From Salinisphaera orenii subsp. orenii MK-B5 (GTDB lineage Bacteria > Pseudomonadota > Gammaproteobacteria > Nevskiales > Salinisphaeraceae), in NCBI RefSeq assembly GCF_003788635.1, contig NZ_AYKH01000005.1, positions 62,001 to 126,000 of the forward strand: a stretch of 64,000 nt of DNA, written 5' to 3'. The notes under the pieces are model-generated. The model made no database searches. It had not been told where the DNA came from and saw only the letters and a list, made by a program, of their open reading frames with translations. The position numbers and the translations under genes are program-made. Below are positions 51,617 to 54,625 of this stretch, piece after piece. The stretch's first letter is position 1. Each line of letters begins with the position of its first letter.

Positions 51617-52462
51617 CTAGCGCAATGAGAATACCACCGGCACGATCAGCTCGAGCCGGTTGCGCCGCATGCGCTGCGGCATGCTCGGCAACGGCTGGGC
51701 CTGACGCAGCATCTGCTCTGCGGCGGCGTCGAGCACGGCTGAACCCGAACTGCGCTCGATGTGGTGGCTGATCACCTGGCCATCCTGGTCCACGACGATA
51801 TAGAGCCGTACCGTCCCCTCGATGTCGTCGTTGCGCGCCTGTTGTGGATACTGCTTGTGGCGCGACAGCCAGGCGCGCAGCCGCACGATATAGTCGTCCG
51901 TCGCCTGGTCGCTCGTCCCGCCGGCTCCGTTGCCGGGTGTTTCGTCCGTTCGCGCCGCCGGCGTATCCAGCTCCGGCGTATGCGCGGTCACGCGCTCGCT
52001 CGGAGACACGGATTCGAGGCTGTCGCCGGGGCCGATCTCGACCGGTGCCGCCTGTGACGGTTCCGCGGCGGTCGCCGGGGCGATCTCCGCCGCCTCGGCG
52101 ATGGCCGGGCCCTGCGATTGCGCGGGTTCGATCGCGTCCGCCAGCACGGGCGCCGGCTGGGCTTCGGCCGCGGGCGCCGGCGTCGGCGCGCTGTCCTCGA
52201 CGGCCGGCACCTCCGCAGCCGACGGTGCAGGAGCGGGAGCCGCGGCACTGGCCGGCTCGGGCGCCTCGACTGGCTGGCTGGGCGTCGTCGGTGCCGGAGG
52301 CGGACCGGCGTCAAGCTCCTCGAGCGACACCATCACGCCCCGCGGCGTCTCGGCAGGCCTGTCGTTGGCCGTGTCGCCGAGCCAGAGTCCGGCCAGCAGG
52401 AGCAGATGCGCGACCACGGCGGCCGCGATCGCGAGCAGCCATTGCCGGGAGGAGATGCCCAT
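51617..52462 (-). CDS. tonB: TonB-family energy transducer
   Basis: 281 residues. N-terminal anchor helix (about 8-28, with the conserved His in the helix: VVAHLLLLAGLWL), a long Pro/Ala/Glu-rich periplasmic spacer (about 45-180), and a C-terminal TonB domain with YIVRLRAWLSRHKQYPQQAR and GTVRLYIVVDQDGQV. It transmits motor force to outer-membrane receptors. The start overlaps the preceding exbD stop by one base (TGATG). No TonB-dependent receptor gene is in the window, so the substrate is unknown. Confidence 0.93.
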   Translation of the reverse strand: MGISSRQWLLAIAAAVVAHLLLLAGLWLGDTANDRPAETPRGVMVSLEELDAGPPPAPTTPSQPVEAPEPASAAAPAPAPSAAEVPAVEDSAPTPAPAAEAQPAPVLADAIEPAQSQGPAIAEAAEIAPATAAEPSQAAPVEIGPGDSLESVSPSERVTAHTPELDTPAARTDETPGNGAGGTSDQATDDYIVRLRAWLSRHKQYPQQARNDDIEGTVRLYIVVDQDGQVISHHIERSSGSAVLDAAAEQMLRQAQPLPSMPQRMRRNRLELIVPVVFSLR

Positions 52463-52869
52463 CAGCGCTGCGGTGCAACCGTGATCAGGCGCAGTCGCTC
52501 CGCCCCCGCGTCATGCAGACGGCGCATGATCGCCACGACGCGTGTCGCATCGCCGGCGCCGTCGGCACGCAGACGAATCGGCATCCCGGGCCGCGCCTCG
52601 AGTCTGGCGCGCACGGCCTCCACCAGGGCGTCGAGGGTGACCGTCTCGCCGTCGAGGGCGAGGCGGCCGTCGGCGGCCAGTTGAATCTCCAGGCCGTCCG
52701 CGCGCGCGTTCGTCTCGCTCTGGGAGGCTGGCGGATCGATGTCGAACGGCTCGGGTGTGACCAGCCGGCCGGCCAGCATGAAGAAGATGAGCAGCAGGAA
52801 CACGACGTTGGTCAGCGGCAGGATCGCTTCGTCGTTGCTGGCCCGGCGGCGGTTGCGGGGAAAGTGCAT
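52462..52869 (-). CDS. ExbD-family protein lacking the membrane aspartate
   Basis: 135 residues with one N-terminal membrane helix and a periplasmic ExbD domain. The helix reads ILPLTNVVFLLLIFFM; where ExbD and TolR have the proton-carrying Asp (as in TPLIDVVF of the neighbouring paralogue) this protein has Asn21 (codon AAC at 52809-52807). It probably pairs with the second ExbD but cannot by itself relay protons. It lies 3 nt after the first exbD and is coupled to tonB. Confidence 0.9.
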   Translation of the reverse strand: MHFPRNRRRASNDEAILPLTNVVFLLLIFFMLAGRLVTPEPFDIDPPASQSETNARADGLEIQLAADGRLALDGETVTLDALVEAVRARLEARPGMPIRLRADGAGDATRVVAIMRRLHDAGAERLRLITVAPQR

Positions 52870-52872
52870 GGA

Positions 52873-53322
52873 TCAGCCTCCGCCGCCGCCGCTCGCGCCC
52901 TGGTCCATCAGCGAGAGGTTGCGGACCCCCGCGTTCGACAGCCGATCCAGAACCCGCACCGTGGCCTGCAGATCCACCCCGGCCGCCGGCTGGACCAGAA
53001 CACGCCGGTCGGGCTGACGGGCGAGCTGGCCGCGGATGCGTGCCGCGAGGTCGTCGAGCGAGAGATAGCGACCGGCAAAACGCACGCCGTCGACGCGCAC
53101 CTCGATCAGCAGCGCGCCCTCGATCGACGGTGCGCCCCCGCCCGCGGCGGGCGTATCGAGTGTGATCGAGCGCAGGTCGACAAAGCTCGAAGCCAGCATG
53201 AAGAACAGCAGCAGGATGAACACCACATCAATCAGTGGCGTCAGGCTGACGAGCGAGCGGCGCCGGCGGGCGCTGCCGTGGTCGCTAAATGAACGGGGTG
53301 CTGTGGTCCGACTCGTCGTCAT
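52873..53322 (-). CDS. exbD: ExbD-family biopolymer transporter
   Basis: 149 residues. Basic cytosolic N-terminus, membrane helix SLTPLIDVVFILLLFFMLASSF with the essential Asp32, and a periplasmic domain ending in a Gly-rich tail. It is the standard proton-relay subunit of the ExbB-ExbD motor. Its first 38 nt overlap the end of exbB in another frame, an unusually long overlap. Confidence 0.94.
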   Translation of the reverse strand: MTTSRTTAPRSFSDHGSARRRRSLVSLTPLIDVVFILLLFFMLASSFVDLRSITLDTPAAGGGAPSIEGALLIEVRVDGVRFAGRYLSLDDLAARIRGQLARQPDRRVLVQPAAGVDLQATVRVLDRLSNAGVRNLSLMDQGASGGGGG

Positions 53323-54001
53323 CGTTGCCCAGCGCCGCGCTCGGCGAGCGCGAGAGATCGACCGTGAATACGCGAGTGACCACGCTGTCCATTTCGTGAG
53401 CAGCGCGGTCGATGGTGCGCTCCAGCCAGTTCAGGGCGACGATGACGGGCATGGCGACCGCCAGGCCGACCGCGGTGGTCAGCAGGGCCTGCCAGATACC
53501 GCCCGACAGCAAGGCCGGGTTCACCTGGCTGCCGGCGGTTTCCAGGTCGCGAAAGGCCTCGATCATGCCGAGTACGGTGCCGAACAGGCCGAGCAGGGGC
53601 GCGAGCGCGGCAATGACCTCGAGCGGGCGCAGATGGCTGCGCAGCGACTCGAGCATGTCGCCGCCGTACTGGAGAATCTCCTCGCGCAGTATCGGTTCCG
53701 GTGCGTTCTGGCGGCTGCGCAGCTGAATCGCGCGGGCCAATACGCGGGCCGCCGGGTTGGGCGAGCGACGCGCCATGGTCACGGCGCCGGCCGCGTTGCC
53801 GGAGCGATAGACGCCGAGCGCGCTGCGCGCGGTGCGCCGATCGTTGATGCGCACGCGGCGAAACTGCAGCAGCTTGGCCACCACGATCGTCAGCGCCAGG
53901 ATCGACATGGCGATCAGGATGAGCACCACCGGGCCGCCGAGTGCCAGCGTGCGGTTGAGGCCCGAGAACAGCCCACCGAGCGTTTCCAGCAGGCCGCTCA
54001 T
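53285..54001 (-). CDS. exbB: ExbB/TolQ/MotA-family proton channel protein
   Basis: 238-residue inner-membrane protein with three helices: about 22-42, and two in the conserved block LRPLEVIAALAPLLGLFGTVLGMIEAF plus WQALLTTAVGLAVAMPVIVAL, the ExbB/TolQ channel signature. With ExbD it harvests the proton gradient for TonB. The gene order exbB-exbD-exbD-tonB rather than with tolA/pal argues for a TonB rather than a Tol system. Confidence 0.95.
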   Translation of the reverse strand: MSGLLETLGGLFSGLNRTLALGGPVVLILIAMSILALTIVVAKLLQFRRVRINDRRTARSALGVYRSGNAAGAVTMARRSPNPAARVLARAIQLRSRQNAPEPILREEILQYGGDMLESLRSHLRPLEVIAALAPLLGLFGTVLGMIEAFRDLETAGSQVNPALLSGGIWQALLTTAVGLAVAMPVIVALNWLERTIDRAAHEMDSVVTRVFTVDLSRSPSAALGNDDDESDHSTPFI

Positions 54002-54076: not shown

Positions 54077-54625
54077 CTACTTGATGAAGGGGACCGAGCC
54101 CCGCTGCGATACCGACAGCAACGACAGGCAGTCGTCGCGGCCGCCGGTATCGGTGCGGCACTCGATCACGTTGTTGAGCAGCAGCTGACCGATGTCGTCG
54201 CAGGCCAGGTCCTGAATGTCGAAGACCTTGAGGCCGGTCTTGGTCGGCGGCATCGGCGCGATCTGAACGGCCAACCGGCGAGCGACAATGCCGTCGTTGT
54301 CGAACATGACGACATCCAGCGACACGCTTTCGAAACGCGACTCCGTGAGGTTCTGCGTCACGAGGTAGGCGCGACAGGCGCCATCGACCGGCTCGAGCTT
54401 GTTGAGCTCGACCTCGATGCCGCCCGCCGACCGCGCCGCGCGGACGCCGCCGCTCGGCTCATCGTCCGGCGGTGACGCCTCGTCGCTGTCCCGCGACATC
54501 GAGGTGGGGTCGGACGCCGCGGCGGCACGCGCATCCTCGTCCGGACTCGAATCGCTGTCGGTCTGGGCCATGGCGCTTGCGGCCAGAAACAGTCCGAGCG
54601 CCGCGACAGTTGCGCGTGTCAGCAT
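54077..54625 (-). CDS. Exported protein of unknown function leading the TonB operon
   Basis: 182 residues. A signal peptide ends at about Ala20-Gln21 (AMAQ), followed by an acidic Ser/Asp-rich linker to about 62. The folded part has a beta-strand pattern, ELNKLEPVDGACRAYLVTQNLTESRFESVSLDVVMFD, and cysteines at CRAY, DLACDD, IECR and DDCL that could form disulphides. I do not recognise a family. It lies 75 nt upstream of exbB in the same direction, so it may be a periplasmic partner of the motor. Confidence 0.75.
   Translation of the reverse strand: MLTRATVAALGLFLAASAMAQTDSDSSPDEDARAAAASDPTSMSRDSDEASPPDDEPSGGVRAARSAGGIEVELNKLEPVDGACRAYLVTQNLTESRFESVSLDVVMFDNDGIVARRLAVQIAPMPPTKTGLKVFDIQDLACDDIGQLLLNNVIECRTDTGGRDDCLSLLSVSQRGSVPFIK

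Follow-up and report, generated by a model that had tools for sequence, protein, structure and literature searches.

A conserved putative Ton motor operon of Salinisphaera orenii with paired ExbD proteins, one carrying Asn in place of the proton-carrying Asp

Current models of the 5:2 motors (MotAB, ExbBD and TolQR) assume two identical axle sites, each an Asp residue, that alternate in 36-degree steps (PMC12905483, PMC12583513, PMC9389320, PMC12215075), with ten protons used per turn. In the published motors, one axle Asp is bound to the threonines of ExbB/TolQ and its counterpart is turned towards the cavity or proton path (PMC12905483, PMC12583513). Systems with two ExbD-like or TolR-like genes have also been described: the exbD2 gene of Xanthomonas campestris is dispensable for iron uptake (PMC3551730), and the AglQ and AglS proteins of Myxococcus both possess the conserved Asp, with a heterodimer suspected but not known (PMC9389320).

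The window analysed here, a 64,000-nucleotide stretch of S. orenii subsp. orenii MK-B5 (contig NZ_AYKH01000005.1, positions 62,001 to 126,000), contains four genes in the order exbB-exbD1-exbD2-tonB, all on the minus strand and all encoding products that pass their Pfam cut-offs. The 238 aa product of exbB (53285..54001) is a MotA/TolQ/ExbB proton-channel pentamer subunit (PF01618, 101 bits) with both pore threonines present (equivalents of E. coli Thr148 and Thr181), residues that are invariant in 153/153 tandem-type ExbBs. Its neighbours exbD1 (52873..53322, 149 aa) and exbD2 (52462..52869, 135 aa) score 73.6 and 79.5 bits against PF02472, for which the curated cut-off is 25.4 bits; both fall short of the NCBIfam equivalog cut-offs for ExbD or TolR of the E. 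coli type and are thus divergent members of the family. The last gene, tonB (51617..52462), encodes a 281 aa protein composed of a membrane helix at the N-terminus that carries a conserved His (as judged by comparing the N-termini of relatives), a Pro/Ala-rich linker and a TonB_C domain (PF03544, 62.7 bits). No receptor is encoded within the window; in some relatives, receptors for haem or siderophore lie beside the operon, three of which (haem/haemoglobin) exceed the TIGR01785 cut-off and one (siderophore) the TIGR01783 cut-off. Since TonB C-terminal domains directly follow the ExbD pair and receptors adjoin the operon in relatives, the most likely role of the tandem system is to energise iron or haem uptake as a Ton motor.

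The original prediction described an ExbD pair in which ExbD1 retains the proton-carrying Asp32 in a TPLIDVVF helix and ExbD2 carries Asn21 instead (LPLTNVVF), the second gene lying 3 nt behind the first and coupled to tonB. Both points were borne out: the codons, read on the minus strand, are GAT for Asp32 (53227..53229) and AAC for Asn21 (52807..52809), the spacing between exbD1 and exbD2 is 3 nt, and the exbD2 stop and tonB start overlap in an ATGA. From this spacing, exbD1 and exbD2 appear to be co-expressed from one operon.

Two further features in or near the operon deserve mention. Directly upstream of exbB lies a gene (54077..54625, minus strand) for a secreted protein with four conserved Cys and without a Pfam or NCBIfam match, which belongs to an unnamed family that recurs in Alpha- and Gammaproteobacteria at Ton loci. 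All homologues in the first locus set (55/55) accompanied the tandem operon; a search of the phylum then ruled out specificity for this operon, as homologues were found beside ordinary exbB-exbD genes, beside receptor-tonB pairs and alone. By its distribution, the protein appears to be Ton-associated and not a fifth subunit of the tandem type. The window ExbB itself has Gln at the position of E. coli Glu176, a site that varies widely in tandem and single systems. A tandem-specific relaxation at this site was considered and rejected, the first set being biased and single-ExbD systems varying equally in an unbiased comparison (Fisher p = 0.67, 0.51); the E. coli ExbB reference in the first comparison served for numbering only.

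Alignment of a profile of ExbD2 relatives placed Asn21 on Asp25 of E. coli ExbD (6tyi) with no gap, and an acidic residue was found at helix positions 18–34 in 0/154 ExbD2 sequences, which removes the possibility that another Asp or Glu of ExbD2 occupies the same membrane position. AlphaFold2 predicts the membrane helix of ExbD2 at residues 17–36; that of ExbD1 is predicted at 28–48. The periplasmic domain of ExbD2 is modelled with confidence, and the PDB structures it resembles most are ExbD and TolR domains (TMt 0.84–0.86 against 8vgd, 8vgc and 8p9r). ExbD2 thus has the sequence match and fold of the ExbD/TolR family and lacks the protonatable helix Asp that is present in ExbD1; judged on these features, it is an ExbD homologue but not a proton-carrying ExbD.

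Conservation around the substitution is strong. P18, Asn21, L25, L26 and F29 are invariant in a 59-row ExbD2 alignment, as are D32, L37, L38, F40 and F41 in a 65-row ExbD1 alignment, and the invariance of the pore-helix residues P18, L25, L26 and F29 equals that in Asp-type ExbDs. Asn did not vary in any of the 15 Asn-type relatives (15/15) of the first alignment. Relatives encode it as AAC (93) or AAT (34), each one transition away from the GAC/GAT codons used by Asp-type ExbDs. Between close Salinisphaera species, exbD2 has a dN/dS of 0.05–0.16, similar to that of exbD1, which indicates that exbD2 is under purifying selection.

The Asp/Asn pair extends far beyond one window and occurs in many bacteria. 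The window's ExbD2 and that of a near relative, Salinisphaera halophila YIM 95161, have the same sequence, and the same S. orenii genome carries a further exbB-exbD(Asp)-exbD(Asn) set on contig C4 (L005, L006; TPLIDVVF then LPLINVVF) as well as single-ExbD systems (L001, L002). The downstream tandem member has Asn throughout the genus, family and order. Scanning 84,980 species genomes with the Asn-seeded pattern LP[LV][TIL]N[VI]V[FL]LL yielded 264 confirmed relatives, the best 80 of which are Alpha- and Gammaproteobacteria. In a set of 236 loci from these two classes, in which some genomes give several loci so that the counts are not independent events, the upstream tandem member has Asp in 156/156 cases, whereas the downstream member has Asn in 151, Ser in three and Asp in two (n=156). 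In operons of this type, Asn is therefore fixed, or nearly so, in the downstream ExbD, and the possibility of an isolated change in one strain can be dismissed; because Asn occurs in 151/156 downstream against 0/156 upstream members, it is by these counts neither chance nor strain noise.

Searches that were not seeded on Asn, using a profile of ExbD1 over 398 genomes of the phylum and a profile of the operon's accessory protein, with retrieval of the neighbourhoods, gave the same result and ruled out an artefact of the search seed. The ExbD1 profile returned 23 D-N and two D-D tandems together with 37 single ExbDs, all with Asp; the accessory-protein profile returned D-N tandems only, some genomes being counted twice. 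Searching with the ExbD2 profile within the class gave 25 D-N tandems, three D-S tandems and 30 single Asp-type ExbDs.

Asn-type ExbDs appeared alone at four loci, three in one genus (L020-L022) and one (L105) in which the upstream copy is damaged. For the former, solitary occurrence was ruled out in the two genomes examined (L237 in G019, L238 in G029): exbD1 is found ~5.5 kb upstream of the Asn-type exbD2 in the same orientation, and both genes are retained despite the imu/dnaE2-type insert between them; a dnaE2-type polymerase gene directly upstream of exbD2 was seen in L021. Among the loci seen, then, the Asn-type ExbD is paired with an Asp-type partner, the exception being L105, with its broken upstream gene.

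Several unusual loci were also recorded. Ser replaces Asn/Asp in the downstream ExbD of one genus only (DMTPLVSVIF; L213, L229 and L146). Locus L047 carries, in addition to a normal Asp and Asn exbD pair, an exbD ahead of exbB (L047:1687-2118) that combines an ExbD1-like helix (Asp, LTPLIDVIF) with an ExbD2-like periplasmic domain, an arrangement suggestive of recombination. Finally, the record NZ_JAGHQU010000010.1 (L038), titled Endozoicomonas sp. G2_2, has an operon matching those of Salinisphaera and shares its contig with G009 of the window's genus; it is probably misnamed.

Two ExbD trees were built, one from 132 sequences and one, in which the trait column was masked, from 71. The underlying alignment is short, at 122 columns; the deep forks lack resolution, and the trees are without a known root. 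In the masked tree, the ExbD1s form one group (95/92) and the ExbD2s another (99/93), the latter in 98% of bootstraps, and ordinary single ExbDs fall on the ExbD1 side of the trees. The two Asp-bearing ExbD2s (L156 and L202) are nested within Asn-bearing relatives (100/93 and 100/99), and their Asp is for this reason most simply explained as a reversion from Asn.

Taken together, the obligate pairing, the gene order, the conserved pore helix and the purifying selection lead us to favour, as the probable explanation and in line with the asymmetric motor raised by the original prediction, a conserved Ton motor whose axle is an obligate heterodimer of ExbD1 and ExbD2 with a single working Asp. 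The ExbB pentamer would enclose one ExbD1 helix (Asp) and one ExbD2 helix (Asn) in a shared pore, leaving the axle with a single protonatable site. Because the axle sites of published motors are non-equivalent and MotB with Asn in place of its Asp resembles the protonated form (PMC9389320), ExbD2 would be permanently neutral while ExbD1 cycles, ExbD2 occupying the place taken by the protonated, threonine-bound Asp of symmetric motors. Proton loading and release by ExbD1 only would turn the two power strokes of the normal cycle into one, with either 72-degree cycles costing ~5 protons per turn or a back-and-forth movement in place of ten equivalent 36-degree steps; the co-encoded TonB would receive the stroke and serve iron or haem receptors. 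Rather more tentatively, we suggest that this may be a widespread natural 5:1:1 motor (ExbB5-ExbD1-ExbD2) with exactly one protonatable axle site, in which each stroke comes from that single site, as a 72-degree cycle or a reciprocating swing. Several points weigh against these proposals: a review calls the Asp absolutely required (PMC12905483), both sites alternate in current models, which might leave a D/N axle unable to turn, two lineages seem to have regained Asp in ExbD2, implying that Asn is not indispensable everywhere, and operon linkage alone could account for co-inheritance with no physical heterodimer.

Other explanations were considered against the same data. That ExbD2, a copy without the catalytic Asp, is merely a decaying duplicate is extremely improbable, since its dN/dS rules out pseudogene decay, Asn has been retained although one transition would restore Asp, and the gene is found across alpha- and gammaproteobacterial lineages. 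It is also unlikely, though less so, that ExbD2 acts as a built-in throttle or idle state, with ExbD1 homodimers doing the work, mixed or all-Asn axles being inactive or weak, and the ExbD1:ExbD2 ratio setting the number of running motors. An Asn that mimics the protonated site could lock an axle, and expression of both genes from one operon, as their spacing suggests, would suit such a role; however, throttle genes are usually lost or placed under separate control, and near-fixed 1:1 pairing with a fixed order in two proteobacterial classes fits an obligate subunit better.

We consider it similarly unlikely that ExbD2 sits outside the ExbB pore as an accessory membrane-anchored periplasmic subunit, binding TonB or peptidoglycan and no longer needing the Asp. 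The confidently predicted periplasmic domain, which matches ExbD-TonB peptide structures, agrees with this, but the pore-facing helix residues of ExbD2 are near-invariant, and the Asp has been replaced only by Asn and rarely by Ser, not by scattered hydrophobics, a pattern that fits continued contact of this residue with the ExbB threonines. Lower still do we place a one-Asp motor with another stoichiometry or coupling ion, for example a non-5:2 complex of one ExbD1 with ExbD2 as structural filler. Salinisphaera is a halophile genus, which would be in its favour, yet neither the ExbB pore threonines nor the ExbD1 Asp motif differs from those of ordinary proton motors. This doubtful reading also draws on purified ExbBD, which has been reported with non-5:2 stoichiometries (PMC5903867).

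If the heterodimer is real, its subunits can be told apart, so that step size, proton cost and the roles of the two chains would be open to measurement with no need for engineered tandem fusions. A motor one of whose sites has been held silent by evolution over a very long time would be a direct natural test of alternating-site models, and if the 5:1:1 reading is true, these rotary motors do not require two Asp residues in strict alternation. In the open-licence literature on tandem, heteromeric or Asn-bearing ExbDs, we found no ExbD pair in which one member lacks the Asp, which is not proof of novelty.

With the E. coli Ton motor (6tyi, 9ddp), the window system shares the ExbB pore threonines, the ExbD1 Asp, the TonB helix and C-terminal domain, and the ExbD fold; E. 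coli, however, has one exbD and a two-Asp homodimer, whereas the window type has two ExbD clades, one of them without Asp. The original prediction had drawn a parallel with the tandem exbD genes of Xanthomonas, and this stands insofar as both have a tandem exbD pair within a ton cluster. It fails on gene order, as tonB comes first in the Xanthomonas type (tonB-exbB-exbD1-exbD2) and last in the window type (exbB-exbD-exbD-tonB), and on the site itself: the two Xanthomonas-order loci found (L253, L255) have Asp in both ExbDs, with an NVTPLVDVML-type helix, while the second ExbD of the window type has Asn. The Myxococcus AglRQS gliding motor likewise has a TolQ-like gene and two TolR-like genes in a row, but it lacks a tonB, functions in gliding and is described with Asp in both AglQ and AglS, unlike the window system, where Asp is present in ExbD1 only. 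Another parallel to the axle proposed here is TolQ with paired TPH-vWA proteins, for which a heterologous axle pair in a TolQ-like pentamer has also been proposed (PMC12204202); there, each chain contributes one of a conserved pair of Asp residues, and vWA domains replace the ExbD periplasmic domain (PMC12204202).
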